This document shows, piece by piece, positions 1,411-19,311 of a DNA stretch of 51,435 bases. The DNA comes from Bacteroidota bacterium (GTDB taxonomy: Bacteria > Bacteroidota > Bacteroidia > Bacteroidales > VadinHA17), in assembly GCA_030618105.1 (NCBI GenBank), contig JAUXED010000005.1:1-51435 (forward strand). Direction: 5' to 3'. Each line of letters starts with the position of its first letter. The first letter of the stretch is position 1. Below the pieces are notes generated by a model. The model saw nothing but the letters and a program-made list of their open reading frames with translations, ran no database searches and was not told where the DNA came from. Position numbers and translations under genes: made by a program.

Positions 1411-1442
1411 TAAATTAAAAATTACAAATTAAAAATTAAAAA
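1411..1442 (+). repeat. AT-rich short repeat (AAATTAAAAATT type)
   Basis: Tandem copies of an AAATTAAAAATT-like unit begin 2 nt after the stop codon at 1406-1408. Similar units occur before yraN (46935-46962) and over the DUF89 stop (7709-7736). Confidence 0.7.
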
Positions 1443-1450
1443 GTGAAGAT

Positions 1451-1506
1451 GAGGAAATGAGGAAATGAGGAAATGAGATGATGAGGTGATGAGGTGATGA
1501 GGAGAA
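1451..1506 (+). repeat. 8-nt tandem repeat GAGGAAAT/GAGGTGAT, 7 units
   Basis: Seven consecutive 8-nt units: GAGGAAAT three times, GAGATGAT, GAGGTGAT twice, GAGGAGAA. It lies between two plus-strand genes in the sense of the upstream gene. The same family recurs at 3118, 6728, 26873, 40440 and 51321. Confidence 0.9.
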
Positions 1507-1552
1507 GAAAGAAGAAGTCATTGAAGAAGTTAAAAGGTAAAATAAATATAGT

Positions 1553-3052
1553 ATGATAATGAAAAGATCAGTTTTTTTTAGTTTTATTCTCTTTGGAATG
1601 TTAGTGATTCCCTTTACCCTGGAAGCACAGGAGAACCAAACCCTTTATTACATGGGTCTCCCACAATCAAGACTTATGAATCCTGCATTACAAAGCAGTT
1701 GCGGTTTTTACCTGGGGCTCCCGGGAGTTTCATCCGTTTATTTTAATTATTCAAACAATGGTTTCAGTCCTGATGATTTTATTTTTAAAGGAACCGGTGA
1801 GTATGCCGATTCACTTATCACTATTCTTCATCCCAGTTATGATATTGATGATTTTCTTGATAAGTTCCCCGAGAGATTATATATTTCACCTGAAGCTCAT
1901 GTTCAGTTGTTTGCTCTTGGGTTCAGGAGTGGAGACACCTATTTCACTTTTGATATTACTGAAAAAGCAAATTTTTTCCTCTCCTTACCAAAAGATTTTA
2001 TGACACTTGCTTTTCATGGAAACAGTGCCTTTATTGGGGGCACCGCTGATTTTTCGGATATCACATTTGATATGACTGAATACAGGCAATATGGAATGAG
2101 CCTTTCAAAGAAAATCAACAAAAATTTAAGCTTCGGTGCAAAAGGCAAACTGTTATTCGGAAAAGCTAACCTTTCTGTAAAAAATACAGACCTTGGAATA
2201 ACTATTGATGAAGAAAATACTTTTGTCCATACATTGCATTCTGATATCAGTCTTAATGTGTCTGCCCCGATTACAGTTACCACAGACTCTGCCGGGTTTA
2301 TTGAAGATCTTGATATAAAGGAGGATATGGATACAGATGAAGGAATTATCGATTTTATTTTGAATACGGGAAACATGGGGTTTGCAGTTGATCTGGGAGC
2401 TGTTTATAACATTGCGGATTATTTCACACTATCGGCAAGTATAGTGGATTTAGGGTATATTAACTGGAAACAGAATGTTTACAATTTTGTTTCGAAAGGG
2501 ACATATAATTTTGAAGGAATTGATACCTCACCGGAATTTGATGTAAATGATAACAGTGATCTTGGTGATGTGGCTGAAGCAATGCTGGACAGTATTGCTG
2601 ATATATTTAAACCTCTGTCGCAAGAAGAAGCTTATATAACTATGCTTCCAACCAAGATATATCTTGGGGGAACATTCAATGTGAGTGAAAAATTAAATCT
2701 CGGCTTACTATCAAAATCGCAGATATATAAGGGAAAGATACAACAGGCTCTAACAGTTTCGGCGAATACTAATCTTGGCAATGCATTGATGACCAGTGTA
2801 AGTTATACCATGTCTAATAATAGTTATAACAACCTGGGTGTAGGGCTTAGTTTTCGCGGAGGTCCTTTCCAGTTTTATTTTGTTTCCGACCACATCCCTG
2901 TTACTTTCAATAAGATTCAGTTCGAAGATAACGGTGATGTTACATCATTTCCGTTCCCAACAAATCTAAAGAGGATCAATATCCGGTTTGGATTGAATTT
3001 TGTTTTCGGATGTAATCCTAAACGGTTTAAGGATAAGCCATTGGTGTTGTGA
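1553..3052 (+). CDS. DUF5723 family outer-membrane-type protein
   Basis: The 499-residue product has an N-terminal signal peptide (residues 3-25, hydrophobic core then an 'EAQ' cleavage-like site) followed by alternating beta-strand segments and a C-terminus rich in aromatic strands ending in 'FGLNFVFG'. Early residues 'MGLPQSRLMNPALQ' match the Bacteroidetes DUF5723 family, whose members look like porin-like beta-barrels. A substrate cannot be inferred. Two ATGs (1553 and 1559) are possible; either keeps the signal peptide. It lies 144 nt after the previous gene, a gap filled with tandem repeats. Confidence 0.75.
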   Translation: MIMKRSVFFSFILFGMLVIPFTLEAQENQTLYYMGLPQSRLMNPALQSSCGFYLGLPGVSSVYFNYSNNGFSPDDFIFKGTGEYADSLITILHPSYDIDDFLDKFPERLYISPEAHVQLFALGFRSGDTYFTFDITEKANFFLSLPKDFMTLAFHGNSAFIGGTADFSDITFDMTEYRQYGMSLSKKINKNLSFGAKGKLLFGKANLSVKNTDLGITIDEENTFVHTLHSDISLNVSAPITVTTDSAGFIEDLDIKEDMDTDEGIIDFILNTGNMGFAVDLGAVYNIADYFTLSASIVDLGYINWKQNVYNFVSKGTYNFEGIDTSPEFDVNDNSDLGDVAEAMLDSIADIFKPLSQEEAYITMLPTKIYLGGTFNVSEKLNLGLLSKSQIYKGKIQQALTVSANTNLGNALMTSVSYTMSNNSYNNLGVGLSFRGGPFQFYFVSDHIPVTFNKIQFEDNGDVTSFPFPTNLKRINIRFGLNFVFGCNPKRFKDKPLVL

Positions 3053-3061
3053 AGAGAAAAG

Positions 3062-3095
3062 AAAAGTTGAAAGTTAAAAGTTATAAAGTTGAAAG
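3062..3095 (+). repeat. AAAGTTGAAAGTT-type tandem repeat
   Basis: Four to five imperfect 7- to 8-nt units of the form AAGTTGA/AAGTTAA lie 9 nt after the DUF5723 stop codon, in the sense of that gene. The same unit occurs directly at the stops of the Gfo/Idh gene (40510-40530) and metG (44681-44701). Confidence 0.8.
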
Positions 3096-3117
3096 GAAAG
3101 AAAGAAGAGAAGACGAA

Positions 3118-3131
3118 GTGATGAGGTGATG
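3118..3131 (+). repeat. Short GTGATGAG repeat
   Basis: Under two copies of the TGATGAGG octamer; listed because it belongs to the family at 1451, 26873 and 51321 and follows a gene in the same sense. Confidence 0.6.
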
Positions 3132-3138
3132 TAGTAAG

Positions 3139-3166
3139 AAGGCAAAAGGCAGAAGGCGGAAGGCAG
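3139..3166 (+). repeat. 7-nt tandem repeat AAGGCAG, 4 units
   Basis: Units AAGGCAA, AAGGCAG, AAGGCGG, AAGGCAG in tandem. A shorter sense-oriented version follows the hldE-type gene on the other strand (28487-28503). Confidence 0.8.
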
Positions 3167-3222
3167 CGCGAACCGCAGCCTCATCAACAAATCAACATTC
3201 CCAGGGAACAAAAATATTTCTG

Positions 3223-3230
3223 TAACTTTG
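3223..3230 (+). promoter_or_regulatory. Putative -7 element TAACTTTG
   Basis: An exact TAnnTTTG site lies 22 nt before the ATG at 3253. No TTG is found at the expected -33 spacing, so the call rests on the -7 element alone. Confidence 0.4.
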
Positions 3231-3252
3231 CGGGATAATTAGCACAAAAGAA

Positions 3253-3495
3253 ATGATAATAGGTTTATTAAGGACCATATTAATAATAATTGTTTTCTAT
3301 TTAGTGGTGAAATTGCTTACAAGGCTTTTATTCCCACCATCAAGAAATAATTCCACCATGAATAACCGGAATAATAAGCCGAAAAAGAAAGAAGGTGATA
3401 TAACCATTCATTTTGATAAACGAACGGATAAGAAAATGTTCGGCAAAGACTCCGGAGAGTATGTTGACTACGAAGATGTAGACAAAGACGAGTAA
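3253..3495 (+). CDS. DUF4834 family small membrane protein
   Basis: The 80-residue protein has one N-terminal hydrophobic helix (residues 2-28, rich in Ile, Leu and Val), a basic stretch (residues 30-48, Arg/Asn/Lys) and an acidic tail ending 'YVDYEDVDKDE'. This layout matches the Bacteroidetes DUF4834 family. It is probably anchored in the inner membrane with the charged tail in the cytoplasm. Function is unknown. An own promoter is likely (TAACTTTG at 3223), and a gap of over 200 nt separates it from the next gene. Confidence 0.7.
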   Translation: MIIGLLRTILIIIVFYLVVKLLTRLLFPPSRNNSTMNNRNNKPKKKEGDITIHFDKRTDKKMFGKDSGEYVDYEDVDKDE

Positions 3496-3674
3496 AGAAA
3501 AATTCTTTTAAAACAACAGCCCCTTAAACTCCTTCGCGTTCCGTTTCGGGTGCCTATGCTAAAGTTTCAGCGACAGCATGCGGACGAGACCTCCTTCGCA
3601 TTTGCTACGGAGGACAAGCAGGAAGTGGTTAATACTATTTATTAAATAAATTTAAATATTGCACATATGTTCAT
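3496..3674. other. GC-richer intergenic segment without tandem repeats
   Basis: The stretch 3524-3626 is clearly GC-richer than its surroundings, contains two CTCCTTCGC copies (3530 and 3590 areas) and CCTCC...GGAGG that can pair across about 14 nt. No ORF with coding character is visible. It is different in style from the other gaps and may be a dispersed intergenic repeat or a structured RNA; I cannot tell. Confidence 0.4.
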
Positions 3675-3682
3675 TATCTTTG
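3675..3682 (+). promoter_or_regulatory. Putative -7 element TATCTTTG before the metal island
   Basis: An exact TAnnTTTG match lies 52 nt before the start at 3734. A TTG at 3659 is only 13 nt upstream, shorter than the usual spacing. It could drive the zinc-ribbon/NifX/MinD genes. Confidence 0.4.
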
Positions 3683-3733
3683 TGGTGTTATACAGAAAAG
3701 GAAATAGAAACCAAAAAAATGGAGGAAATAAAA

Positions 3734-4009
3734 ATGAATAATTCAGGAAGAAACAGAACTGCCGGAGGAGGTGGTGGACGTGGACAAGGCGGACAAGGCA
3801 GAGGCTTGGGTCAAAGTGGACAGGGCAGAGGTTTAGGACAAGGCGGAGGACGCGGTCGTAATAAAGGTGGAGCGTTTGGTATAGGAGGTTATTGCGTTTG
3901 TGCAAAATGCGGGGCAAAAGTACCACATCGGCAGGGTGAAAAATGTACAACATTAAAATGCCCGGAATGTGGAAAAACAATGATAAGAGAAGAATTGTTA
4001 AAGAAATAG
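3734..4009 (+). CDS. Glycine-rich zinc-ribbon protein
   Basis: The product is about 91 residues. Residues 5-45 form a Gly/Arg/Gln-rich low-complexity tail with GQGRGLGQ-like repeats; residues 50-90 hold a zinc ribbon with two CxxC pairs ('CAKCGAK' and 'CPECGKTM'), followed by basic 'REELLKK'. The start at 3734 is chosen because GGAGG at 3721-3725 sits 8 nt before it; an ATG at 3719 would contain that motif. It lies 21 nt before a NifX-family gene and two MinD/ferredoxin ATPase genes, so it probably belongs to the same metal or Fe-S system. Nucleic-acid binding through the RG-rich tail is an alternative. Confidence 0.65.
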   Translation: MNNSGRNRTAGGGGGRGQGGQGRGLGQSGQGRGLGQGGGRGRNKGGAFGIGGYCVCAKCGAKVPHRQGEKCTTLKCPECGKTMIREELLKK

Positions 4010-4030
4010 TAACAATAAATAAATAAAAAA

Positions 4031-4369
4031 ATGAGAAAACTATTTGCTGTGCCAACAATTGACGGTAAATTATGTCAGCATTTTGGCCATTGTGAGAAAT
4101 TTGCAATTGTGGAAACACAAGAGAATAAAGTTGTAGGTGAAGAATATATTGCTCCGCCAGTACATCAACCCGGAATTTACCCTAAGTTTCTTGCCGATCA
4201 TGGCGTTGAAGTAATTATTTCCGGAGGAATGGGTCAGAAAGCACAAGATCTTTTTGCCCAGAACAGTATAGAGGTTTGTGTTGGTGTGAATTCTGATTCA
4301 CCACGGCAACTTGTAAAGCAATACCTGGAAGATCAACTTGAAACCGGTCAGAATCTTTGTGATCATTAA
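4031..4369 (+). CDS. NifB/NifX-family metal-cluster-binding protein
   Basis: The 112-residue protein carries the dinitrogenase iron-molybdenum cofactor domain: 'HFGHCEKF' (residues 16-23), a central 'PGIYPKFL', and 'ISGGMGQKAQDLF' (residues 63-75), ending in 'CDH'. Family members bind Mo-Fe-S, Fe-S or Mo-Cu clusters; no nif structural genes are present here, so this is not a nitrogen-fixation locus. The next gene, a MinD-type ATPase with a ferredoxin insert, starts 6 nt downstream, so co-translation is likely. This NifX plus MinD pairing is the hallmark of ORP-like systems. Confidence 0.85.
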   Translation: MRKLFAVPTIDGKLCQHFGHCEKFAIVETQENKVVGEEYIAPPVHQPGIYPKFLADHGVEVIISGGMGQKAQDLFAQNSIEVCVGVNSDSPRQLVKQYLEDQLETGQNLCDH

Positions 4370-4375
4370 TAAGCA

Positions 4376-5239
4376 ATGAAGATAGCAATTGCAAGCGGAA
4401 AGGGCGGAACAGGAAAAACAACCCTCTCAACAAACCTGGCTGGTTATTTTGCGGAAAAAGGAGAAATGATTTTGGCGGATTTAGATGTCGAAGAGCCTAA
4501 TTCAGGGCTGTTCATTAAAGGTGAATCTGTTTACAAAGAGGATAAATATAAAATGATCCCCGAATGGGAACAGGAGAAATGTACTCTTTGTGGATTATGT
4601 CAGGATGTGTGTAATTTCCATGCAGTGATTCAATTGGTGGATCAGATCATGGTTTTTCCCGAGTTATGCCATAGTTGTTACGCTTGTTCGGAATTATGTC
4701 CTACCGATGCCCTGCCTATGGTTCCGAAAAAAATGGGCGAGTTGAACCATTTTCGAAAGGATAATTTAACTTTCGTGGAAAGCCGCCTTGATATAGGCCA
4801 GGAACAGGCAGTGCCATTAATCTCTCAAACAAACGAATATATTGATAAGCATTTCCCCAAAGAGGCTATAAAATTATACGATTCGCCTCCGGGAACATCA
4901 TGCCCGGTAATTGAAGCCGTAAAAAATGCCGATTTTGTTATTCTTGTTACCGAACCAACACCTTTCGGATTACATGATCTGAAACTGGCAGTTGATACTT
5001 TAAAGGAACTGAAAATAAAATTTGGTGTTGTTGTAAATCGTCATGGTATTGGGAATGATGATGTAGTGAACTATTGCCAAAAAGAAAACATTGATTTAAT
5101 AGCAAAAATTCCGAATAGCCGCCGTATAGCTGAATTATATTCACGCGGCGAATTAATTTATCAGAAAATTCCGGAAGTAAAACATCAATTTGAAAATATT
5201 GAGAGGTATATTTTTGCAATTAATAAGAAAGGCGCCTGA
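4376..5239 (+). CDS. MinD-superfamily ATPase with inserted ferredoxin domain (first)
   Basis: The protein has 287 residues. A deviant Walker A motif 'GKGGTGKTT' is at residues 8-16, followed by 'DLDVEEPN' at 35-42. A two-cluster ferredoxin insert has Cys69/72/75/79 and Cys98/101/104/108. The MinD core resumes with 'DSPPGTSCPV' and 'VTEPTPFGLHDLK'. Such proteins couple ATP hydrolysis to handling of Fe-S or heterometal clusters in anaerobes. It pairs with a second copy 46 nt downstream, and the two probably form a heterodimer, as proposed for the ORP ATPases of Desulfovibrio; the pairing here is inference from adjacency. Confidence 0.88.
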   Translation: MKIAIASGKGGTGKTTLSTNLAGYFAEKGEMILADLDVEEPNSGLFIKGESVYKEDKYKMIPEWEQEKCTLCGLCQDVCNFHAVIQLVDQIMVFPELCHSCYACSELCPTDALPMVPKKMGELNHFRKDNLTFVESRLDIGQEQAVPLISQTNEYIDKHFPKEAIKLYDSPPGTSCPVIEAVKNADFVILVTEPTPFGLHDLKLAVDTLKELKIKFGVVVNRHGIGNDDVVNYCQKENIDLIAKIPNSRRIAELYSRGELIYQKIPEVKHQFENIERYIFAINKKGA

Positions 5240-5285
5240 TGAAACCCTCATCCTTAAGTAGGTTAATAAATATAGCTTTATCCAC

Positions 5286-6176
5286 ATGAAAGAAATTGTT
5301 GTTATTTCAGGGAAAGGGGGCACAGGGAAAACTTCCATTACTGCATCATTTGCGTATCTGGGGGGAAAGGATGTAGTTGTTGCAGACTGTGATGTAGATG
5401 CGGCAGATATGCACCTGCTTATGCAGCCGGATTTTGCAAAATCTGAAGATTTTTTTAGTGGCGAAATTGCTGTGATTGATCAGGATAAATGTACTAAATG
5501 TGGAAAATGTGCTGATGTTTGCCGTTTTAATGCAATTCCGGTTATTAACGATCAATATGTTGTTCAACCATTGGACTGTGAAGGATGTGGATATTGTTCG
5601 AGGGTTTGTCCTGAAGATGCTATAACAAATGAGAGTCAGAATGTGGGCAATTGGTATATTTCAAATACAAAAGCTGGAAACACCATGGTACATGCCAGAC
5701 TTGGTATTGGGGCAGATAACTCGGGTAAACTTGTTGCAAAAGTAAAGAATGAGGCAAAACAGATTGCAAAAGAAAACAATAAAAATTATATAATTATTGA
5801 TGGTTCTCCCGGTATAGGATGTCCTGTAATATCATCACTCTCCGGTGCCGGTTTTGTTGTCCTGGTAACAGAACCTACAGTAGCAGGCTTGCACGATTTA
5901 AAACGGGTTTATAAGCTGGTAAAACAATTCAATATTGAAACAGGTTGTATTATAAATAAATCTGATCTTAACCTAAAGGTATCCAATGAAATAGAAGGTT
6001 TTTTAAAGGAAGAAGATATTATTCATATTTCCAGTCTGCCTTACGATGAAACTTTCACAACTGCTATGACCTTAGGACAAACAATTGTTGAATATGGTGA
6101 GAGTAATTTAAAAGAAATTATAAAAGAGAGTTGGGAGAAAGTGATCCAAATAGTAGGGAAGAAAAGTAAAAAGTAA
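5286..6176 (+). CDS. MinD-superfamily ATPase with inserted ferredoxin domain (second)
   Basis: A 296-residue paralogue of the preceding gene. Walker A 'GKGGTGKTS' is at residues 9-17 and 'DCDVDAADMHLL' follows at about 35. The insert carries 'CTKCGKCADVC' and 'CEGCGYCSRVCP', two complete CxxCxxCxxxC sets. The core closes with 'DGSPGIGCPV' and 'VTEPTVAGLHDLK'. Divergence from copy one is high, so this is an old duplication rather than a recent one. The last codons (encoding KKSKK) are already part of a 7-nt AAAAGTA repeat that runs through the stop codon at 6174-6176. Confidence 0.88.
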   Translation: MKEIVVISGKGGTGKTSITASFAYLGGKDVVVADCDVDAADMHLLMQPDFAKSEDFFSGEIAVIDQDKCTKCGKCADVCRFNAIPVINDQYVVQPLDCEGCGYCSRVCPEDAITNESQNVGNWYISNTKAGNTMVHARLGIGADNSGKLVAKVKNEAKQIAKENNKNYIIIDGSPGIGCPVISSLSGAGFVVLVTEPTVAGLHDLKRVYKLVKQFNIETGCIINKSDLNLKVSNEIEGFLKEEDIIHISSLPYDETFTTAMTLGQTIVEYGESNLKEIIKESWEKVIQIVGKKSKK

Positions 6177-6182
6177 AAAGTA
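6162..6182 (+). repeat. 7-nt tandem repeat AAAAGTA, 3 units across a stop codon
   Basis: Three perfect AAAAGTA units (6162-6168, 6169-6175, 6176-6182) overlap the last codons and the TAA stop (6174-6176) of the second MinD-type gene. Confidence 0.85.
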
Positions 6183-6205
6183 AAGAGGGAGTAATGAGGA
6201 GATGA

Positions 6206-6245
6206 AACGATAGAACGATGGAACGATAGAACGATGGAACGATAG
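6206..6245 (+). repeat. 8-nt tandem repeat AACGATAG/AACGATGG, 5 units
   Basis: Five units strictly alternate AACGATAG and AACGATGG, giving a 16-nt higher-order period. The same family lies after the second NifX gene (9229-9265). Both are in the sense of the upstream gene. Confidence 0.9.
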
Positions 6246-6313
6246 GACGAAGAGAGGGGAGTGACTGATAATGGTACGGCCTTCAGATAGCCGACTTTAA
6301 ACAGCAAAGTATT

Positions 6314-6700
6314 ATGAAATTAGAACATATTGCAATAACTGTTTCTAAACCTGCTGATATTAAGGATTTTTATCTTGATATTCTCGGGATGAAAGAGGTG
6401 AAAAACTTTGTTTTAAATAAGGTTCTTGCTAATAAGATTTTTAGCATAAATAAAGAAACTTCAGTTTGCCTTTTGCAAAAAGATGATATTAGTCTGGAGA
6501 TGTTTATTTTACCCGGACAAAGCAAACGCAGCTTTGAACATATCTGTCTTACAGTTAAGGACCGGGAGAAACTTGTTGAAAATTCCCTGAAACAAAATTA
6601 TGAATGTATCAGGATAGAAAGAGATTTGTTCGATCTGGTATTTATAAAAGATAAAAGCGGAAATGTTTTTGAAATTAAGGAGAGTCAGGTAAGTAGGTGA
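6314..6700 (+). CDS. VOC (glyoxalase/dioxygenase fold) protein
   Basis: The 128-residue protein starts 'MKLEHIAITVSKPADIKDFY' and has the paired beta-alpha-beta-beta-beta modules of the vicinal oxygen chelate superfamily; 'FEHICLTVKDREKLVENS' begins the second module and 'FIKDKSGNVFEIKES' closes it. His5 and His75-like residues and the terminal Glu are candidate metal ligands. The substrate is not predictable. The gene sits inside the run of plus-strand metal-related genes. Its stop codon (6698-6700) lies inside a repeat containing GTAAGTAGGTGAG. Confidence 0.75.
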   Translation: MKLEHIAITVSKPADIKDFYLDILGMKEVKNFVLNKVLANKIFSINKETSVCLLQKDDISLEMFILPGQSKRSFEHICLTVKDREKLVENSLKQNYECIRIERDLFDLVFIKDKSGNVFEIKESQVSR

Positions 6701-6716
6701 GTAAGTTGAGTAAGGA
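6689..6716 (+). repeat. GTAAGTAGGTGAGTAAG-type repeat over a stop codon
   Basis: Imperfect GTAAGT/GTGAGT/GTTGAGT units cross the TGA stop of the VOC gene. An equivalent sense-oriented element lies over the topA stop on the other strand (21831-21865). Confidence 0.75.
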
Positions 6717-6727
6717 GGAGAAGAAAT

Positions 6728-6759
6728 GAGGTAATGAGGTAATGAGGAGATGAGGTGAA
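6728..6759 (+). repeat. 8-nt tandem repeat GAGGTAAT, 4 units
   Basis: Units GAGGTAAT, GAGGTAAT, GAGGAGAT, GAGGTGAA; a member of the GATGAGG family, in the sense of the upstream VOC gene. Confidence 0.85.
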
Positions 6760-6791
6760 GAATGAAGAGTTCAAGGTTTAAATGACTTTAA

Positions 6792-6826
6792 CCCGTAACC
6801 CGTAACCCGTAACCTGTAATACGTAA
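6792..6826 (+). repeat. 7-nt tandem repeat CCCGTAA, 5 units
   Basis: Three perfect CCCGTAA units then CCTGTAA and TACGTAA. Related short copies lie after gldN (14382-14398, minus), after the hldE-type gene (28472-28481, minus) and before yraN (46866-46888, plus). Confidence 0.85.
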
Positions 6827-6864
6827 CAATTTAGAAGAATGTAGAATGAAAAAATATTAAACAT

Positions 6865-7710
6865 ATGAAAACGTTTTTAGATTGTTTGCCTTGTATGATG
6901 GATCAGGCTTTGCGTGCCGGAAGAATGGCTACTGATGATGAGCGGATAATAAAAAAACTGCTTGATACTGTCGGCGCAATGATGAAAGATATTCCGATGG
7001 AGAACACACCTCCTGAAACAGGAGAGATCATTTACCGGAAAGTAAGAGAAATAACAGGGGTAACTGACCCATACAAGGAAATTAAGAAAGCGAATATTGA
7101 GGAAGCTCTGTCTTTATATCCGGAGTTAAAAAAAAATGTTGAAGAGTCTGATAATTCACTGCTAACAGCTATTCGTATGGCTATAGCCGGGAATGTTATT
7201 GATCTGGGAGTGAATAAGAAATTTAATCTTGTTGAAGATGTGCAAAAAATCTTAAAGCAAGATTTTGCTATTCTGGATTTTGATAAATTTGAAAAACAAC
7301 TAAAGATAGCGGATTCTGTTCTTTATCTTGGAGATAATGCGGGGGAATCAGTTTTTGATAAAATTCTTATTGAAGAATTAAATAAACCGGTAACATATGT
7401 AGTAAGAGAAATACCCGTGATAAATGACGTAACAGAGGAAGATGCAATTGCATCAGGAATTAATGAGGTTGCTGAAATAATATCTTCAGGAACAACAGCC
7501 CCTGCAGTTATTTTAAGTTTATGTAATAATGAATTTATTGAGAGATTTAATAACTCAAAACTGATTATCAGTAAGGGGCAGGGGAATTACGAAGGTCTTT
7601 CAAATGTTAAACAACCAGTATTTTTTCTTTTAAAAGCAAAATGCTTTGTTATTGCCAACGAATTAAATGTAGAAGAAAACGATATTGTTTTAAAAGGGAT
7701 TAATGTGTAA
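6865..7710 (+). CDS. DUF89 family metal-dependent phosphatase
   Basis: The 281-residue protein begins 'MKTFLDCLPCMMDQALRAG', the CxxC start of type I DUF89 proteins, and has the family motifs 'LGDNAGESVFD' (residues 156-166), 'SSGTTAPAV' and 'SKGQGNYEGL' (about 235). DUF89 enzymes are Mn/Ni/Co-activated phosphatases acting on damaged or unwanted phosphometabolites. Type I members are common in anaerobes and archaea and often sit near radical SAM genes, as here (75 nt before the next gene). The natural substrate is unknown. The stop codon overlaps an AAATTAG repeat. Confidence 0.85.
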   Translation: MKTFLDCLPCMMDQALRAGRMATDDERIIKKLLDTVGAMMKDIPMENTPPETGEIIYRKVREITGVTDPYKEIKKANIEEALSLYPELKKNVEESDNSLLTAIRMAIAGNVIDLGVNKKFNLVEDVQKILKQDFAILDFDKFEKQLKIADSVLYLGDNAGESVFDKILIEELNKPVTYVVREIPVINDVTEEDAIASGINEVAEIISSGTTAPAVILSLCNNEFIERFNNSKLIISKGQGNYEGLSNVKQPVFFLLKAKCFVIANELNVEENDIVLKGINV

Positions 7711-7736
7711 ATTAGAAATTAGAAATTAGAAATTAC
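7709..7736 (+). repeat. 7-nt tandem repeat AAATTAG, 4 units
   Basis: Units AAATTAG three times and AAATTAC; the first unit uses the last two bases of the TAA stop of the DUF89 gene. Confidence 0.85.
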
Positions 7737-7760
7737 TAATTAACCAATTAACCAATTAAC
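7737..7760 (+). repeat. 8-nt tandem repeat TAACCAAT
   Basis: About 2.5 units of TAACCAAT directly follow the AAATTAG array, so two different families abut with no spacer. Confidence 0.8.
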
Positions 7761-7785
7761 ATTGAAAATCCGATAAAATAGTAAT

Positions 7786-8733
7786 ATGTACAAGTACTTA
7801 TTTGGTCCTGTACCATCGCGACGTTTAGGAATGTCTTTAGGTGTTGACCTTGTTCCTCATAAAGTATGTTCACTTAATTGCATTTATTGTGAATGTGGAT
7901 CTACTACTAATTTAACAATAGAAAGAAAAGAATATGTTCCTTATAACGAAGTGGTACAGGAATTAAAGCGATTTCTCAGTGATAAACCGGCACTTGATTT
8001 TATTACTTTTTCAGGTTCGGGAGAACCTACTCTTAATTCACGTATTGGCGATATATTGAAATTTATTAAACAGAATTATCCCGATATTCCTGTTGCCGTT
8101 CTGACAAACGGGACTTTACTCAAAAATAAACAGGTAAGAGGGGAAATTATGGATGCGGACCTTGTATTGCCATCGTTAGATGTTGCTTCAAACCTGACTT
8201 TCAGGAAAATAAACAGACCTTTTCATTCGCTGAATATTGAAGATTATATAAATGGTCTTTGTGAATTCAGAAAAGAATACCAGGGCAAAATATGGCTGGA
8301 GGTTCTTATTATTCCGGGATATAATAACAGTAAGGAGGATTTAAAATTATTGAAAGAGGCATTTAATAAAATTAAACCTGACAGCATTCAGTTAAACACA
8401 CTTGACAGACCCGGAGTTATACCAGGGCTTAGAGCTGCCGGGAAAGAGGAATTGGAACAAATTGCAGATTTCTGGGGACTTGATAATATTGAAATTATTG
8501 CTGCAGCCCAATCGCGAAAAGAGATAAAATCTTTCCGTGATGATATTGAATCTGCAATTTTGGAGACAATATTCAGAAGACCATGCACTGTTGATGACCT
8601 GGTTAAAATTCTAGGGTTACATATTAATGAAATAAATAAATATCTTGATGTGTTAGAAGCAGATAATAAGATCAAATCTGTTCAGCAGGAGAGAGGTGTA
8701 TTTTATCAGACAACAAACAGGAGCTATGAATAA
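7786..8733 (+). CDS. Radical SAM protein with C-terminal winged-helix-like region
   Basis: The protein has 315 residues. 'GPVPSRRLG' precedes the [4Fe-4S]-SAM motif Cys28-x3-Cys32-x2-Cys35, with an extra Cys37. 'TFSGSGEPTLN' is the glycine-rich SAM-binding strand. Residues 250-310 ('TVDDLVKILGLHINEINKYL') look like a winged-helix segment. It belongs to the COG0731-like Fe-S oxidoreductases, whose reaction is mostly unknown. Its place between a DUF89 phosphatase and a NifX protein suggests cofactor work; that is inference from context. Confidence 0.85.
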   Translation: MYKYLFGPVPSRRLGMSLGVDLVPHKVCSLNCIYCECGSTTNLTIERKEYVPYNEVVQELKRFLSDKPALDFITFSGSGEPTLNSRIGDILKFIKQNYPDIPVAVLTNGTLLKNKQVRGEIMDADLVLPSLDVASNLTFRKINRPFHSLNIEDYINGLCEFRKEYQGKIWLEVLIIPGYNNSKEDLKLLKEAFNKIKPDSIQLNTLDRPGVIPGLRAAGKEELEQIADFWGLDNIEIIAAAQSRKEIKSFRDDIESAILETIFRRPCTVDDLVKILGLHINEINKYLDVLEADNKIKSVQQERGVFYQTTNRSYE

Positions 8734-8766
8734 CAACATGGGTAAATAATTAGATTACAGCAGTTT

Positions 8767-8794
8767 GCAATTGGCAGTTGGCAGTTGGCAGTTG
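8767..8794 (+). repeat. 7-nt tandem repeat GCAGTTG, 4 units
   Basis: Units GCAATTG, GCAGTTG, GCAGTTG, GCAGTTG. Related to the CAGTCGG family after glmS (34571-34598). Confidence 0.85.
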
Positions 8795-8889
8795 GTAAAA
8801 TAGTTAATGCCAAAATATCGCTGACCTTTTTGTTAGTCATTTTGAACTTAGCCCGAATAATTAACTTAAACTTAAAAAACAATAAAAAA

Positions 8890-9228
8890 ATGAAAATTGT
8901 ATTTACAGCAAAAGGAACAGAGTGGGATTCTATGATGGATTCCCGTTTCGGGAGAACTGAATTTATTCTGATGTATAATGATGAAAAGGATGAATTTACA
9001 TATACTGACAACAGGGATGTTGCTAATGAGGCTCATGGAGCCGGACCACGAACAGCACAAAGATTATTTGAACTTAATCCTGATGTATTAATCACCGGAA
9101 ACGGTCCCGGAGGTAATGCTGCATCAGTTTTAGAAAAGGCTGGTATGAAAATTTTCGTTGGGGCAGGTCAGATGACTGTCAAAGAAGCATTTGAAGCATA
9201 TAAGAAGGGTGAATTGAAGAAGTTTTAA
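8890..9228 (+). CDS. NifX-family metal-cluster-binding protein, ORP-like
   Basis: The 112-residue product has 'DSRFGRTEF' near residue 17 and 'TGNGPGGNAASVLEKAGMK' in the second half. This 'SRFGR' form is closer to the orange protein of Desulfovibrio than the 'HFGHCEKF' copy at 4031. The ATG at 8890 is chosen because the frame upstream is an unlikely extension through repeats and AT-rich DNA, and A-rich sequence precedes it. Cluster binding is expected from the family, but conserved Cys ligands are absent here, so binding would need other residues. It lies 80 nt before the metal exporter gene. Confidence 0.82.
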   Translation: MKIVFTAKGTEWDSMMDSRFGRTEFILMYNDEKDEFTYTDNRDVANEAHGAGPRTAQRLFELNPDVLITGNGPGGNAASVLEKAGMKIFVGAGQMTVKEAFEAYKKGELKKF

Positions 9229-9265
9229 ACGATAGTACGAAAGAACGATAGTACGAAAGAACGAG
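9229..9265 (+). repeat. 16-nt tandem repeat ACGATAGTACGAAAGA, 2.3 units
   Basis: Two perfect 16-nt units begin immediately after the TAA stop at 9226-9228. Each can be read as two 8-nt subunits related to the AACGATAG family at 6206. Confidence 0.88.
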
Positions 9266-9308
9266 GGTGTGAGAGTGTGAGTATGTTAATCATAACAATA
9301 ATGAAAAT

Positions 9309-10340
9309 ATGGATTTACAATCACTTGCACATGTTTTTAAGCATGCATTAATGATCACCGGTTTTGTACTGATGATGATGCTTATTATTGATTATATCAA
9401 TGTGCAAACACAAGGCGTCTGGAATCGTAAATTGCAGCAGAAAGAATGGTTGCAGATTATTCTATCAGCATTTCTTGGAGTTATTCCCGGTTGTCTTGGC
9501 GCATTCGCAGTTGTATCTTTATATACACACCGTATTGTAAGCTTTGCAGCTCTGGTAGCCGCTATGATAGCAACTTTTGGCGATGAAGCATTTGTAATGT
9601 TTGCCATGATGCCGGAAAAGGCACTGATATTAACGATCATTGTTTTTGCCGTTGCTGTTTTTACAGGCTTTTTCATTTTGTTGGTCTCGAAACAAAAAAA
9701 TCAGGATAGCGACAGATCATATGGGTTTGAGGTACATGAAAAAGAAACAGAATGTGTTTGTTTTCCAAAAGATAAATTATTTGCTCAGATTAAACACATA
9801 AATTTTGAAAGGACATTATTAATTGCCGGCTTTTTACTTTTTATAATTTTTCTTGTAGCAGGAGAATTGGGCCCTGAAGAATGGGATTGGAAGCGGATCA
9901 CTTTTCTTGCAGGAGGTTTAGTTACATTGTTTATTGTAACAACTGTTCCTGACCATTTCCTTAAAGAGCATCTTTGGGGACATGTGATAAAGAAACATTT
10001 ACCACGTATATTTCTTTGGACGTTTGGAACTTTTGTCTTTATTCATTTTATCGAGGGATTCCTGGATATCAGTAACTGGATACAGGATAATCAATATGTG
10101 ATTTTAATCATTGCAGTATTGATTGGTATAATCCCTGAGTCCGGGCCACATCTGGTTTTTATCACACTTTTTGTAAATGGCACAATCCCATTCAGTATAT
10201 TATTGGCAAGCTCCATTGTCCAGGACGGACACGGGGCGATCCCTTTACTGGCTGAATCTAAAAAAGGGTTTATTTATATGAAGCTAATAAATATTCTGGT
10301 TGGATTAATTATTGGGTTTATAGGTCTGTTTTTCTTTTAG
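9309..10340 (+). CDS. Putative 10-TM heavy-metal (Mn/As-type) exporter
   Basis: The protein has 343 residues with about ten hydrophobic helices in two halves joined by a soluble loop (about residues 128-165, with 'CVCFPKD'). The repeated halves carry 'LGVIPGCLGAF'/'IGIIPESGPHL' and 'TFGDEAFVMF'/'SIVQDGHGAIPLLA', the paired motifs of the ArsP_2 (putative manganese/arsenic efflux) family; the acidic and His residues are the likely metal path. It closes the plus-strand metal island and meets the minus-strand PLP enzyme end to end with no gap. The metal is not predictable from sequence. Confidence 0.78.
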   Translation: MDLQSLAHVFKHALMITGFVLMMMLIIDYINVQTQGVWNRKLQQKEWLQIILSAFLGVIPGCLGAFAVVSLYTHRIVSFAALVAAMIATFGDEAFVMFAMMPEKALILTIIVFAVAVFTGFFILLVSKQKNQDSDRSYGFEVHEKETECVCFPKDKLFAQIKHINFERTLLIAGFLLFIIFLVAGELGPEEWDWKRITFLAGGLVTLFIVTTVPDHFLKEHLWGHVIKKHLPRIFLWTFGTFVFIHFIEGFLDISNWIQDNQYVILIIAVLIGIIPESGPHLVFITLFVNGTIPFSILLASSIVQDGHGAIPLLAESKKGFIYMKLINILVGLIIGFIGLFFF

Positions 10341-11525
10341 TCAGGATATCTTGTTTAATGCCTGTGAAAGATCGTCAATCAGATCTTCAACATTTTCAAT
10401 ACCAATTGATAAACGTACCAATCCGTCTGTAATCCCGGCTTTCAGTTTCTCTTCTTTGTTTATGCCCGAATGGGTCATTGAAGCAGGATGCTGAATAAGT
10501 GTTTCAATTCCACCAAGAGAGACTGCAAGAATTGCCAGCTCTACATTATCCATAAGAACTTTTCCGGCATCGAGGCCACCTATTAATCCAAAGCTTATCA
10601 TTGTACCGAATCCTCTCATTTGCTTTTTGGCAAGTTCATGCTGCGGGTGTGATTTCAGTCCCGGATATTTTACCCATTCAACAAGAGGGTGTTCTTCGAG
10701 CCATTGTGCGATCTTTGCAGCATTTTCCTGGGCTTTTTCGATTCGGATTGATAGAGTTTTAACACCACGGTGAACAAGGTAAGCCTGGTGCGGGTCCATA
10801 TTGCAACCAAAATTTACCATTATGTTTCTGATCTGTTTATAAAGATTTTCCTCTTTCGCTATAATAACTCCGCCAACTACATCAGCATGACCGTTAATAA
10901 ATTTTGTAATGGAGTGGAACACAACATCAGCGCCCAGGTCGAGGGGATTTTGGAGATAGGGACTTGAAAAAGTATTATCCACAACAAGGGGGATTCCATA
11001 TTTATGTGCAATTTCTGCAATTTTACGGATATCGGTTATTTGCATAGTGGGATTAGAAGGGGTTTCGACCAGGATCATTCTGGTATTGGGTTTAATTGAT
11101 TGTTTAACTTTATCAGAATCAGAGGTATCTACAAAAGTAGCTTCAACGCCAAAGCGGCTGTAGTGTTTTTCAATGACATTGCGTGAGGGCCCATAAACTG
11201 AAGCTGTACTTACCAGATGCGCACCTTGTCCGAGTAAAGCCAGATAAATTGAATTAACAGCACCCATTCCCGAGCTGGTTGCAATTCCTCCGAATCCGTT
11301 TTCAAGTTCAGCTATTGTTTCTTCAAGGGCATTTATAGTCGGGTTCCCAAGCCGTGTATAAATATACCCATCGTCTTTACCTGAAAAGCAATCAGCTCCA
11401 TGCTGTGCGTTTTTAAAAGAAAAAGTAGATGTTTGAAAAATAGGGACAGTTACGCTACCCATTGAGTCTTCTAGTTCTCCTAAGTGTACAAGTTTTGTGT
11501 TGAAACCGGTTTTTTTCTTTTTCAT
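10341..11525 (-). CDS. Trans-sulfuration PLP enzyme (methionine gamma-lyase / cystathionine gamma-synthase family)
   Basis: The 394-residue protein is of usual family length. The PLP-binding Lys208 lies in 'HSITKF', and the partner-subunit phosphate site 'YTRLGNPT' is at 56-63. 'SSGMGAV' and 'VVDNTFSSPYL' are also typical. The overall pattern is nearest methionine gamma-lyase, but at the position after the substrate Tyr (Tyr111-Gly112) the lyase has Cys and this protein has Pro113, so the reaction could equally be cystathionine synthesis/lysis. It is cytosolic, transcribed after mlaEF with a 58-nt gap, and converges with the exporter gene. Confidence 0.8.
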   Translation of the reverse strand: MKKKKTGFNTKLVHLGELEDSMGSVTVPIFQTSTFSFKNAQHGADCFSGKDDGYIYTRLGNPTINALEETIAELENGFGGIATSSGMGAVNSIYLALLGQGAHLVSTASVYGPSRNVIEKHYSRFGVEATFVDTSDSDKVKQSIKPNTRMILVETPSNPTMQITDIRKIAEIAHKYGIPLVVDNTFSSPYLQNPLDLGADVVFHSITKFINGHADVVGGVIIAKEENLYKQIRNIMVNFGCNMDPHQAYLVHRGVKTLSIRIEKAQENAAKIAQWLEEHPLVEWVKYPGLKSHPQHELAKKQMRGFGTMISFGLIGGLDAGKVLMDNVELAILAVSLGGIETLIQHPASMTHSGINKEEKLKAGITDGLVRLSIGIENVEDLIDDLSQALNKIS

Positions 11526-14434: not shown

Positions 14435-15292
14435 TTAGTATTCCCAAAGATCATGTTCAACGTTGAATAGCCATTCTTTTATGCGTTGCGCCTCAATTAA
14501 CGCCTCTTTCCCTGTTTCATAATCAAATATTTGACGGTTATCGTAAACGTTTGATTCCGCAATGATTGTGCTGGAGAATCTTCTTTGCATAAAGAAATCG
14601 TCATAAGAAATCCGGTGAGCGTCATTATTAGGATTAAAAATTTCATGATTTGCGAATGTATTCCTGAAATCAGGATAATAGATCCAGCATATCCTTACTT
14701 TTTTAAATTCACCAAGTTCACTGTCATAATAATGCCGGATTGGCATTAATCCAAGGATCCTGACATCCATCCGGGAGTGTTTTTTATCAAAGAACCACTC
14801 TTCCTGAACCTGGATTTGCTTAACATCTTCAGGGCTTGGTTCATTAACAATTACAGTATCTCTATAAACACCGGGGGCTATCTGGATACTTGTTGAGTCA
14901 GTTTCAGCTCCCATTTTCCTGTCTATATCAGCCTGAGTGATCTTTACGGTCATATCATCACCAATATCGGCATCGTAAGCATTAACAGTACCCGACTTAA
15001 TCTCAGCGAGAATTATATGTATAAGACTTGCACGATCACCAATTGGTTCAGTAGGGAAGTACAATGGTTGATTTATTTTTTTTCTAAGGTCGATTACCCT
15101 CCATATTTTTTTTGACCACATAACATCTGCTTCGCGCAGGTGAGAGTAAGGGATTGGTGATTTATCCCTAATATCTTTATTATATAAGCCTTTTACCCGT
15201 GCAGGGGATTCCTGAGCTGAAAGTTTCAGAGCAGGAGCGAATAGAATGCTTAGGAACAGTATTCCAGGAATTATTATTCTATGTTTTTTCAT
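14435..15292 (-). CDS. gldN: Type IX secretion/gliding component GldN (PorN)
   Basis: Residues after the chosen start at 15292 ('MKKHRIIIPGILF') form a signal peptide of about 26 residues ending 'LSAQESP'; the longer in-frame start at 15319 would overlap gldM and spoil it. The mature protein of about 260 residues is periplasmic, with the family pattern 'DVMWSKKIWRVIDLRKKIN', 'QVQEEWFFDKKHSRMDVRI' and 'FMQRRFSSTIIAESN'. GldN/PorN binds GldK/PorK to form the periplasmic ring of the T9SS translocon. It is the last gene of the operon, 20 nt after gldM, and is followed by a CAGTC repeat and the terminator. Confidence 0.92.
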   Translation of the reverse strand: MKKHRIIIPGILFLSILFAPALKLSAQESPARVKGLYNKDIRDKSPIPYSHLREADVMWSKKIWRVIDLRKKINQPLYFPTEPIGDRASLIHIILAEIKSGTVNAYDADIGDDMTVKITQADIDRKMGAETDSTSIQIAPGVYRDTVIVNEPSPEDVKQIQVQEEWFFDKKHSRMDVRILGLMPIRHYYDSELGEFKKVRICWIYYPDFRNTFANHEIFNPNNDAHRISYDDFFMQRRFSSTIIAESNVYDNRQIFDYETGKEALIEAQRIKEWLFNVEHDLWEY

Positions 15293-15311
15293 ATCGAAAA
15301 TAAGTTTATTG

Positions 15312-16949
15312 TTATTCAATTTTCAGAACAATTGGAGGAAGTGACCTTTGACGACCATCGGGTCCAACTGCTTTAATATCGGTAAATACAACACGATCAT
15401 TTCTCTTCAATCTGTTAATTAAGCTTTTCTGGGCTGCTGTAACTCTATGGCTTTTTGATGGTTCGGTAACGGCAAACCCACGGTCGTTTATTTCAATTAT
15501 AAAGGCGGTGACATCATAATGTATATCGAACAGAAAATTTTCCAGTTCAGCAAAAACTGCCACCTGGGCACTTAGCATTGATTTTGCAATTGCCCCGCTG
15601 TTTTTTCCACCAACTTTTGCCACAGGGTCAGGTACTACTTCTACCCTGAAGGGAATGGGTGCAAATGAACGCATTACACCATTAATCTCTGCTGTAACTG
15701 TAACATTGGCTGGTTTCCCAGGAGTTCTCGGATTTGCAATAAATGAACCACGAAACTTTTTGGTAGTTCCCCTTTTTATTGTGCCGTTTGTCATCTTGGC
15801 AAAAGTTTTATCAGAGGCTGCCCCGGAAACGGAAATATCAACAGGATTATCCACAGCAACATAGAAAACATTCATAGCAGTGGGAGAAACAACTACATTG
15901 GGTGGTGCCACAGTATATTTTTCTTCGAAAGGGAAATTTGTAAAATTCCCATCAGGGGCTCTCATTCTAATTAGTCCCCCCCAGGTTTTATCTCCAAGAA
16001 CAGTAGGTTTTCTCTTGTATATTCCCCGTCCGCGTTCATCAACAGTTAATGTTTCATAACCAGGGATCATACGATATTCCTTAATTCCATTGGCATTAAC
16101 AGTGGTTTCATATTTACCAACTAAAACTTCAGGTTGTTGAGTTGTATCTGTTGCAGCAATGAATACCTCAGCCTGGTATTCGTTACCTCTCATAATATAG
16201 TTCGAATTAGTAATTATAGTTGGGATCAGACTATTAAATTTAAAAGCTCCGGCGTCAATTTGCTGATATAGGAAATTAAGAGCTTCAGCTTCTGCATTTC
16301 GAATGTCACTTTGCACTTTGGACAATAGAGTGATGGAAGCAATAAGAGGTGATGCCTGGAACATATGGTTAACCCAAAGCACCTTTTCTCCTTTAATTAC
16401 GGGATCGTTTGTATCAAGACCGGCTTCGATTGAATTTGAAGCACTAACATTCTTATTTCCAATTATATCCAGCAAAAATGTACGGTATTCTTCTATTGCA
16501 GCTTTCATGTCAAATGCTGCTCCATTCTGGTCTGATCCGACAAGTATTTGTGAAGGAACATTATTCTCGTCAATTTTTTGGATATGTTCAACAATGATCT
16601 CTCCATCTGCTGTAAGGGCTTCACTATCTTTTCCCTCTGCTGTCTGAATAATTTCGATCTTTAATCCCTGTACATATTCATGCAACTCGTTAGCACGATC
16701 CTTAACCTCGTATGCAATGTTTTTCCAGGGGCCTGCTTTTTGTGGATTTTCACTAGCAGCCTGATCGAATTCCTGGTAAATCAAATTGTTTTTAGCACTA
16801 AAATTCTCAGTGGTTTTGGTAAGACTTTTGTCAACAAGTTTAAAAGCTTCCACGGCATCTTTAGACACATTCAGTGCCAGCAATGCTGTAAGCACCAAAT
16901 ACATCATACCAATCATTTTTTGTCTTGGGGTTTCTTTTCCGTGAGCCAT
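15312..16949 (-). CDS. gldM: Type IX secretion motor protein GldM (PorM)
   Basis: The 545-residue protein begins 'MAHGKETPRQKMIGMMYL', with a single transmembrane helix at about residues 13-32 and a long periplasmic part ending in immunoglobulin-like beta domains, matching the known GldM architecture. GldM and GldL form the proton-driven inner-membrane motor of the T9SS; the N-terminal helix and its Arg/Glu surroundings contact GldL. It follows gldL by 39 nt and precedes gldN by 20 nt. Length and order match P. gingivalis and Flavobacterium. Confidence 0.95.
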   Translation of the reverse strand: MAHGKETPRQKMIGMMYLVLTALLALNVSKDAVEAFKLVDKSLTKTTENFSAKNNLIYQEFDQAASENPQKAGPWKNIAYEVKDRANELHEYVQGLKIEIIQTAEGKDSEALTADGEIIVEHIQKIDENNVPSQILVGSDQNGAAFDMKAAIEEYRTFLLDIIGNKNVSASNSIEAGLDTNDPVIKGEKVLWVNHMFQASPLIASITLLSKVQSDIRNAEAEALNFLYQQIDAGAFKFNSLIPTIITNSNYIMRGNEYQAEVFIAATDTTQQPEVLVGKYETTVNANGIKEYRMIPGYETLTVDERGRGIYKRKPTVLGDKTWGGLIRMRAPDGNFTNFPFEEKYTVAPPNVVVSPTAMNVFYVAVDNPVDISVSGAASDKTFAKMTNGTIKRGTTKKFRGSFIANPRTPGKPANVTVTAEINGVMRSFAPIPFRVEVVPDPVAKVGGKNSGAIAKSMLSAQVAVFAELENFLFDIHYDVTAFIIEINDRGFAVTEPSKSHRVTAAQKSLINRLKRNDRVVFTDIKAVGPDGRQRSLPPIVLKIE

Positions 16950-16988
16950 AATTCAAGGATGAAGTTTATAATTAAAAACTAAATAGTA

Positions 16989-17891: not shown

Positions 17892-17927
17892 AGTAGTTGA
17901 ATTTTATTATTAATCTGAAAAAAAAAT

Positions 17928-19265: not shown

Positions 19266-19311
19266 ATCTATTTCAGTTTTATATTGCAAGTAAATTAATT
19301 TTTTTTAATAA

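Follow-up and report, generated by a model that had tools for sequence, protein, structure and literature searches.

An ORP-like NifX and MinD gene core with neighbouring DUF89, radical SAM and exporter genes in a Bacteroidales genome

The nine-gene island and its ORP-like core

The stretch of DNA analysed here (the window, 51,435 nucleotides) comes from contig JAUXED010000005.1 of assembly GCA_030618105.1, a Bacteroidota bacterium of the order Bacteroidales whose genome we call G000. It carries an island of nine open reading frames (ORFs), all on the plus strand and in the order ZR-NX1-MD1-MD2-VOC-D89-RSM-NX2-EXP, between positions 3719 (or 3734) and 10340. A sequence-only reading of this DNA had placed nine co-directional genes there, named their families and likened their NifX and MinD/ferredoxin proteins to the orange protein (ORP) complex of Desulfovibrio. 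All nine ORFs were recovered on that strand; eight have Pfam or NCBIfam matches to the families named, and ZR is borne out by conserved homologues. The likeness of the core to the ORP complex is upheld by the match of NX2 to the structure 2wfb, by that of NX1 to MrpORP, and by the description of the complex in the sections of PMC6345978 available to us. The features are as follows.

3719..4009, plus strand: ZR, a Gly/Arg-rich N-terminus and a zinc ribbon (CVCAKC...H...C...CPEC); start possibly 3734
4031..4369, plus strand: NX1, a stand-alone NifX/Di-Nase protein with CQHFGHCE ... CDH (PF02579, 1.1e-19)
4376..5239, plus strand: MD1, a MinD-type ATPase with two 4Fe-4S ferredoxin motifs and switch-II C176 (CbiA/MinD and two Fer4 stretches)
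5286..6176, plus strand: MD2, a paralogue of MD1 with two 4Fe-4S motifs and switch-II C179 (CbiA/MinD and two Fer4 stretches)
6314..6700, plus strand: VOC, a glyoxalase/VOC-superfamily protein (PF00903, 6.7e-10)
6865..7710, plus strand: D89, a DUF89/ARMT1-like protein (damage-control phosphatase family) with an N-terminal CxxC (PF01937, 6.6e-71)
7786..8733, plus strand: RSM, a radical S-adenosylmethionine (SAM) enzyme with GPVPSRRLG, CxxxCxxC and a C-terminal helical, winged-helix-like region (PF04055, 9.6e-15)
8890..9228, plus strand: NX2, an ORP-like NifX protein with SRFGR, cysteine-free (PF02579, 7.1e-14)
9309..10340, plus strand: EXP, a member of a heavy-metal exporter family with 10 transmembrane segments (ArsP_2 / 'arsenic efflux protein'; PF11449, 5.5e-38; NF037962)
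3675..3682, plus strand: a TAnnTTTG (-7-like) element upstream of ZR, a weak candidate, the motif being so short that chance matches occur

PF02579 has just two matches in the whole genome, NX1 and NX2. Each is a protein of 112 residues that ends with the Di-Nase domain and has no IssA-type C-terminal tail. NX1 matches the MrpORP model (NF041136) over its C-terminal domain, positions 266-365 of 365, at 4.9e-36 and with a score well under the whole-protein cut-off. It consists of the Di-Nase domain alone: the two-domain MrpORP (Mrp plus Di-Nase) is not in the cluster, and a full-length Mrp match lies on a separate contig of the source genome (C43). NX1 carries both motifs of the MrpORP Di-Nase domain, CXHFGHCE and CDH, and among its 46 homologues, all distinct, HFGHC is kept in 41, the complete C.HFGHC in 26 and CDH in 37 (residue counts, here and below, pool both of our sequence collections, with the window and loci L212-L225 left aside; duplicates were one each for NX2, D89 and RSM). 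In MrpORP the same two motifs have been proposed as ligands of a cluster assigned as [3Fe-4S]; the domain gave a [3Fe-4S]-type signal and had a potential near -445 mV (PMC6345978, in the text available). NX2 is closest, among solved structures compared by profile, to 1rdu (8.8e-13) and to the orange protein ORP itself, 2wfb (1.8e-9). The SRFGR motif, correctly singled out by the earlier reading, is reflected in an RFGR kept by all 25 distinct homologues, 23 of which are cysteine-free.

The two ATPases keep eight ferredoxin cysteines each in alignments of 17 sequences, and across the collections both ferredoxin motifs are intact in 58/64 MD1 and 62/62 MD2 proteins. Their switch II reads D..PG..C in 64/64 MD1 and 62/62 MD2 sequences (126/126, all distinct), whereas the 24 Mrp proteins of the same neighbourhoods, also all distinct, have D..PG..D in every case and the cysteine in none (0/24). 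In a MAFFT alignment with a NifH from L174, this cysteine shares a column with the NifH cluster ligand, seven residues past the switch-II Asp; we take that ligand to be C132 in A. vinelandii numbering. A CXC or CXXC in the C-terminal half, a trait of Mrp/Nbp35/ApbC, occurs in 0/64 MD1, 3/62 MD2 and 12/24 of the Mrp set itself. With the C-half CXXC scarce and Cys replacing the switch-II Asp, MD1 and MD2 fall outside the Mrp/Nbp35 (ApbC) class.

The added genes and the spacing of the island

ZR has no family match above cut-off. Its metal-binding pattern is kept in all 40 ZR matches of the gathered loci (40 distinct), and 14 aligned homologues share 15 invariant columns; since such conserved homologues exist, ZR is a real gene, and a 158-residue ORF antisense to it is most likely a shadow. 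Its start is ambiguous between ATG 3719 and ATG 3734, the second being preceded by GGAGG. A ZR-like ribbon lies inside the same ORF in 9/53 DUF134 proteins. The sole DUF134 gene of the source genome, on contig C65 (L210 9462-10388) next to a DUF5320 gene, encodes a C-terminal sequence that by eye resembles the ZR ribbon. Because the ribbon recurs in DUF134 proteins, which we take to be DNA-binding, a regulatory role is the likeliest guess for ZR.

In 8 of 13 VOC matches, the first labelled gene that follows downstream is DUF89. The D89 profile (A1) matches two structures over almost its full length, 2g8l at 1.3e-72 and 2ffj at 1.8e-54, both named 'hypothetical protein' by their depositors with no function given. 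D89 scores above the PF01937 cut-off and has DNxGE and KGQGN-type motifs; phosphatase activity is a prediction from the family. Of 114 distinct homologues, 113 retain its N-terminal CxxC. EXP scores 146.9 bits against the 'arsenic efflux protein' model NF037962 (cut-off 100), and its transport substrate is likewise a family-level prediction.

RSM is 315 residues long and has no PF02579 match, that is, no NifX fusion. The sole invariant cysteines among 18 aligned homologues are C28, C32 and C35, those of the SAM cluster. For its predicted model (mean predicted local distance difference test, pLDDT, 84.1), NifB and pyruvate formate-lyase-activating-enzyme structures tie, and RlmN, TYW1 and viperin come next, lower. 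NifB requires extra cysteines for its auxiliary (K) clusters beside those of the SAM cluster; a NifB-like role for RSM was dropped, despite the structural tie, for lack of conserved cysteines beyond CxxxCxxC.

In some other loci (L049, L078, L081, L083, L085, L201-L204 and others), two genes shortly downstream of RSM are, judging by eye, presumably HdrC and HdrB. A member of the BtuR/CobO-type corrinoid adenosyltransferase family lies near DUF89 in L100, L103, L105 and L036 (Pfam-checked in L100 only). Single MD islands with two or three RSM-type frames occur in L190 and L189, from the phylum-level relatives G179 and G297.

The gaps along the island measure, in order, 21, 6, 46, 137, 164, 75, 156 and 80 bp (range 6-164 bp), and short tandem-repeat arrays sit in five of the eight. 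The next gene, at 10341-11525, is convergent with EXP. In the genus member G001 (L034) the D89-RSM, RSM-NX2 and NX2-EXP gaps are 35, 14 and 112 bp, and in G002 (L033) the D89-RSM spacing is 435 bp; since gap lengths differ between species, they provide no argument against an operon. The TAnnTTTG element, which we take to be the Bacteroidetes -7-like promoter motif, occurs in none of the eight intergenic gaps of the island. The arrangement is compatible with the nine genes forming a single transcription unit. Sigma-70-type promoters and terminators showed no excess over chance. No Rfam family reached the gathering threshold anywhere in the window, which ruled out an RNA element there on that measure.

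Tandem arrays crowd the spacers at 1412-9264 and 21767-51435, with units of mostly 7, 8, 9 and 16 bp. After merging, 25 of 30 arrays fall between genes, even though the ORFs used make 91% of the window coding. The contig terminates in an 8-bp unit repeated 15 times, and such arrays may thus break the assembly. Elsewhere in the window, at 14435-20280 on the minus strand, lies a row of genes that we take, from names given by eye (gldK, gldL, gldM, gldN, PorP/SprF-like), to be Type IX secretion-like.

Distribution, gene linkage and molybdenum markers

A strong MD match (E < 1e-25) is present in 57 of the 118 genomes of our relatives set, G000 included, and an MD match in 6 of 295 other Bacteroidota genomes, the latter count having been made with a different query (profile A5, E <= 1e-30). 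We counted neighbours within 8 kb of the MD pair at the MD loci of all 63 of these genomes, the window being one of them, at 25 bits or more. Many of these loci end at contig edges, so that in this regard the counts are minima; the models for DUF5320 and ZR are rich in glycine, and their counts may be inflated. A NifX-type gene of some sort is found at 60/63 loci, and at 45/63 NX1 is joined by NX2 or NX2b (NX1 at 50, NX2b at 44, NX2 at 11). DUF5320 (48) and DUF134 (41) are the commonest other partners of MD in the relatives; in the source genome they lie outside the window, on another contig. CGGC (32), an FAD oxidoreductase (27) and Mrp (26) come next, followed by RSM (19), DUF89 (16), ZR as a separate gene (13), EXP (10), MIP18 (10) and VOC (2).

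Among genomes that hold both genes of a pair, DUF89 and MD are co-located in 16/33, RSM and MD in 15/36, EXP and MD in 9/24, and DUF89 and RSM in 16/29. All four proportions are far above chance (assumed to be 0.8-1.6% per genome, relatedness uncorrected). By presence, MD occurs in 33/40 genomes with DUF89 and 24/78 without it (P 8e-8, relatedness uncorrected), and in 24/41 with EXP and 33/77 without it (P 0.12). RSM matches were counted at about E < 1e-34 only, which excludes a near-ubiquitous paralogue with frames of mostly 260-300 residues. G001 was scored as DUF89-linked from a fragment of 42 residues where a contig ends; G029, with a DUF89 fragment of 46 residues next to RSM, was not scored as DUF89-RSM linked; and in G074 DUF89 and RSM are separated by 2 kb that hold MD1, MD2 and VOC.

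Individual genomes illustrate how the added genes come and go. The genus member G004 has ZR, NX1, MD1, MD2, RSM, NX2, EXP and DUF134 consecutively, with VOC absent from the locus and a DUF89 match absent from the genome. Another member, G005, keeps RSM and EXP and lacks DUF89, NX2 and a strong MD match. DUF89, RSM and MD each lie on separate contigs in some genomes of g2 and g13, for example G018, G020 and G046. Four g11 loci (L201-L204) have DUF89-RSM-HdrC-HdrB with no NifX gene and with weak MD2 matches (47-53 bits). The added genes are thus neither fixed nor random: the core is constant and the remainder varies, not freely. The larger system proposed by the sequence-only reading survives in part. 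DUF89, radical SAM and exporter genes do recur near the core far more often than chance would give, and DUF89 and radical SAM do so on contigs labelled as other phyla too, but they do not make a fixed nine-gene unit, as G004, G005 and the rarity of VOC demonstrate. That reading would have given way to a neighbourhood in which NifX-MinD-MinD alone was conserved and the rest varied freely among close relatives, and the comparison went half that way.

To look beyond Bacteroidota, we scanned named genomes with the DUF89 profile A1; at least 586 relatives were confirmed, of which the best 80 loci were analysed. At strict thresholds, an NX or MD gene accompanies DUF89 at 22 of these loci, RSM at 17, ZR at 23, VOC at 11, EXP at 9 and CGGC at 17; a loose threshold raises the loci with a core gene to 27/80. 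No core gene was seen at the remaining 58/80, most of the 80 being short contigs. Only 25 have 5 kb on both flanks, and 8 of those 25 have the core. One locus labelled Spirochaetes (L096) carries MD1, MD2, NX2, VOC, DUF89 and RSM in a single run, and further DUF89 loci with the core are labelled Cloacimonadota (L160, L162), Aminicenantes (L153), Zixibacteria (L112) and Methanophagales (L111). The association recurs across several labelled phyla, with differing gene orders; the labels are names of metagenome bins, in which individual contigs are possibly misbinned.

The earlier reading had noted no nif or molybdenum-cofactor genes nearby, and for the families searched (PF00148, PF00994) this holds assembly-wide. 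No MoeA/MogA-type gene was found in G000 with PF00994, whose sole match is a CinA of 417 residues. Six of the seven genus members have one PF00994 match and G003 has none; the identity of the match was checked in G000 only. A ModA/WtpA-type binding protein (PF13531) was found neither in G000 nor in any of the seven genus members, TupA-type proteins and anion permeases being outside this search. In other relatives PF13531 matches often adjoin a PF00994 frame of MoeA length, as in G014, where the neighbour scores MoeA-like. Once PF13531 matches weaker than 1e-10 were discarded (59 to 54 genomes), neither molybdenum marker was detected in 22 of the 57 MD-positive genomes, 13 of which are at least 90% complete. 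Molybdenum-cofactor genes are present in 30/57 genomes with the MD pair and 30/61 without it (P 0.72), and a link between the two was rejected for want of any association. A nitrogenase link was rejected as well: PF00148 has no match in G000 and matches above cut-off in 3/118 relatives.

A proposed Fe-S machine with a second module, and its alternatives

From the genes observed, their motifs and co-location, and the lack of the searched molybdenum genes, we tentatively favour a reading in which the island encodes an anaerobe-type, ORP-kind Fe-S cluster machine without obligate molybdenum, to which a DUF89/radical SAM/exporter module is loosely attached. MD1 and MD2 would form a dimeric, probably heterodimeric, ATPase of the MinD/NifH class with ferredoxin domains built in, and ATP hydrolysis may gate the passage of electrons or of a cluster from the ferredoxin sites via the switch-II cysteines. 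The CXHFGHCE/CDH ligands of NX1 would bind a low-potential Fe-S cluster. NX2 might hold a sulfide-bridged cluster of iron or another metal non-covalently, in the fashion of ORP, and both proteins would ferry iron-sulfur material to client proteins. This part of the scheme draws on published relatives and on the motifs found here. What we infer beyond it, besides the role of the cysteine and the metal of NX2, is a second module of DUF89, RSM, EXP and, more loosely, VOC that would join and leave the core. In it the DUF89 phosphatase may remove a phosphorylated side-product or metabolite, RSM may contribute a radical SAM step, and EXP may export surplus or toxic metal. ZR would likely be a metal- or Fe-S-responsive regulatory partner.

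Several observations weigh against this reading. VOC is almost unlinked to the core (2/63 MD loci), and the P values for co-location are uncorrected for phylogeny. The column of the second NifH ligand, presumably C97, falls among the ferredoxin cysteines of MD1 and MD2, where the alignment is untrustworthy, and has no clear counterpart there. Hhalign matched the profiles of MD1 and MD2 to NifH only over short local segments that do not extend to switch II, so that the equivalence of the cysteine with that of NifH rests on the MAFFT alignment and on spacing. For the predicted MD1 fold (pLDDT 90.8), VIA-align places ApbC, ATPase-type HypB, BchL, MinD and NifH all at Z 21.0-23.6 among the matches listed, and Foldseek puts MinD structures on top (1.2e-11), with BchL (5.7e-9) and NifH (2.6e-8) lower; the fold itself therefore does not discriminate between the MinD, BchL and NifH classes. 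As to molybdenum, PF13531 is somewhat commoner in genomes with MD (31/57 vs 23/61, P 0.10), at most a weak tie; molybdate could enter through a TupA-type binding protein or an anion permease; and the G000 assembly is 95% complete. To our knowledge, ORP-type clusters contain no pterin, so that missing molybdopterin genes alone do not exclude molybdenum.

The ORP-like core and the DUF89-radical SAM-exporter module could also be two unrelated neighbours that merely share a genomic hotspot or a regulator, which we consider rather unlikely. Such independence would suit G005, which retains RSM-EXP without the core, the NifX-free DUF89-RSM-HdrC-HdrB loci L201-L204 with their MD2 matches of just 47-53 bits, and the scattering of DUF89, RSM and MD over different contigs in G018, G020 and G046. 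It sits less easily with the excess of MD in DUF89-positive genomes (phylogeny-uncorrected, as given above), with the co-location of the two in 16/33, and with the recurrence of the association on contigs of several labelled phyla in differing gene orders.

A bolder form of the Fe-S reading would make MD1-MD2 a NifH/BchL-like, ATP-driven low-potential reductase that contains its own ferredoxins. Its task would be to load or reduce an iron-based cluster carried by NifX-fold proteins, in organisms that have no nitrogenase and no molybdenum. The island would then be a molybdenum-free assembly line, standing on its own and akin in its logic to nitrogenase cofactor assembly, with the DUF89 phosphatase and a radical SAM enzyme with a new function in its service. 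We regard this as doubtful. Like nitrogenase cofactor assembly (NifB, NifX, NifH), the island has a radical SAM enzyme, NifX domains and a P-loop ATPase in which one cysteine aligns with a NifH ligand; unlike it, RSM conserves the SAM-cluster cysteines only and G000 has no nitrogenase. The radical SAM and NifX domains of NifB are separate genes in some organisms (PMC8351635, in the text available).

The heterometal cofactor suggested by the sequence-only reading corresponds to an ORP-type Mo-Cu system, in which the ORP-like protein would hold a Mo-Cu sulfide cluster non-covalently, expanded with DUF89, radical SAM and exporter genes. The homology of NX2 to ORP (2wfb) speaks for it, as do the pair of ferredoxin-bearing MinD ATPases and the Di-Nase domain, which fit the complex described in the available part of PMC6345978, and the slight enrichment of PF13531 in MD-positive genomes. 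The idea nevertheless fits poorly with G000, where no MoeA/MogA-type gene or ModA/WtpA-type protein was found (the binding protein being absent from all seven genus members too), and with an MD pair unassociated with molybdenum-cofactor genes. These absences weaken the Mo-Cu reading here without excluding it, and we consider it distinctly unlikely.

Still less probable in our view is a metal-homeostasis operon (Mn, As or Cu) headed by the exporter, with the NifX and MinD proteins as metal-sulfide buffers. EXP does exceed the cut-off of the 'arsenic efflux protein' model and lies near the MD pair in 10/63 loci. IssA of Pyrococcus furiosus, a protein of the same domain family (PF02579/IPR003731), stores iron and sulfur as thioferrate and shares with the island the handling of Fe-S in an anaerobe (PMC5524996, in the text available). 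However, the presence of EXP is not clearly tied to MD (P 0.12), the window has no Rfam family at the gathering threshold, and NX1 and NX2 lack the glycine-rich, cationic C-terminal tail that IssA has according to that text and PMC6345978. A MinD-like positioning or cell-division complex is very improbable: MinD structures top the Foldseek ranking for MD1 and the ORP complex is described as putatively cell-division-related in the available text of PMC6345978, but a pure positioning ATPase would need neither the switch-II cysteine (126/126) nor the ferredoxin motifs (58/64 MD1 and 62/62 MD2).

The favoured Fe-S machine has its nearest known relative in the ORP complex of Desulfovibrio vulgaris (Orp3/Orp4, Orp5, Orp8 and Orp9, which is MrpORP). 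As far as the available text of PMC6345978 describes it, the two share a pair of MinD-type ATPases, each with two 4Fe-4S motifs, an ORP-like NifX protein and an MrpORP-type Di-Nase domain. That text also reports that Orp3, Orp4 and Orp8 co-purify and that MrpORP passes Fe-S clusters to them; we match these three to MD1, MD2 and NX2 by description only. In the island, by contrast, the Di-Nase domain is a gene of its own, with Mrp on C43, no counterpart of Orp5 was identified, DUF89, RSM, EXP, VOC and ZR are added, and the searched-for molybdenum genes were not found in the source genome. Compared with MrpORP itself (DVU2109/Dde3202), NX1 shares positions 266-365 with CXHFGHCE and CDH, lacks the fused Mrp domain and scores far under the whole-protein cut-off.

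The title of Fievet 2011 reportedly calls the ORP complex anaerobe-specific, and that paper may already list Bacteroidetes. As a kind, the complex has been known from 2011 onward, as cited in the available part of PMC6345978. Literature searches by DUF and COG names returned no description of this neighbourhood. Our searches of the open-access literature found no description of the DUF89/RSM/exporter form, of its occurrence without a detected molybdenum marker or of the invariant switch-II cysteine.

The function of the ORP complex is unsettled and its name is tied to molybdenum. The presence of its core in 57/118 genomes, 22 of them without a detected molybdenum marker, shifts the question to Fe-S chemistry and provides clean comparison organisms. 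The cysteine kept in 126/126 MD proteins offers a single-residue handle on the mechanism, and the recurrent tie of the core to DUF89 and to an uncharacterised radical SAM family gives a context for seeking the substrates of both.

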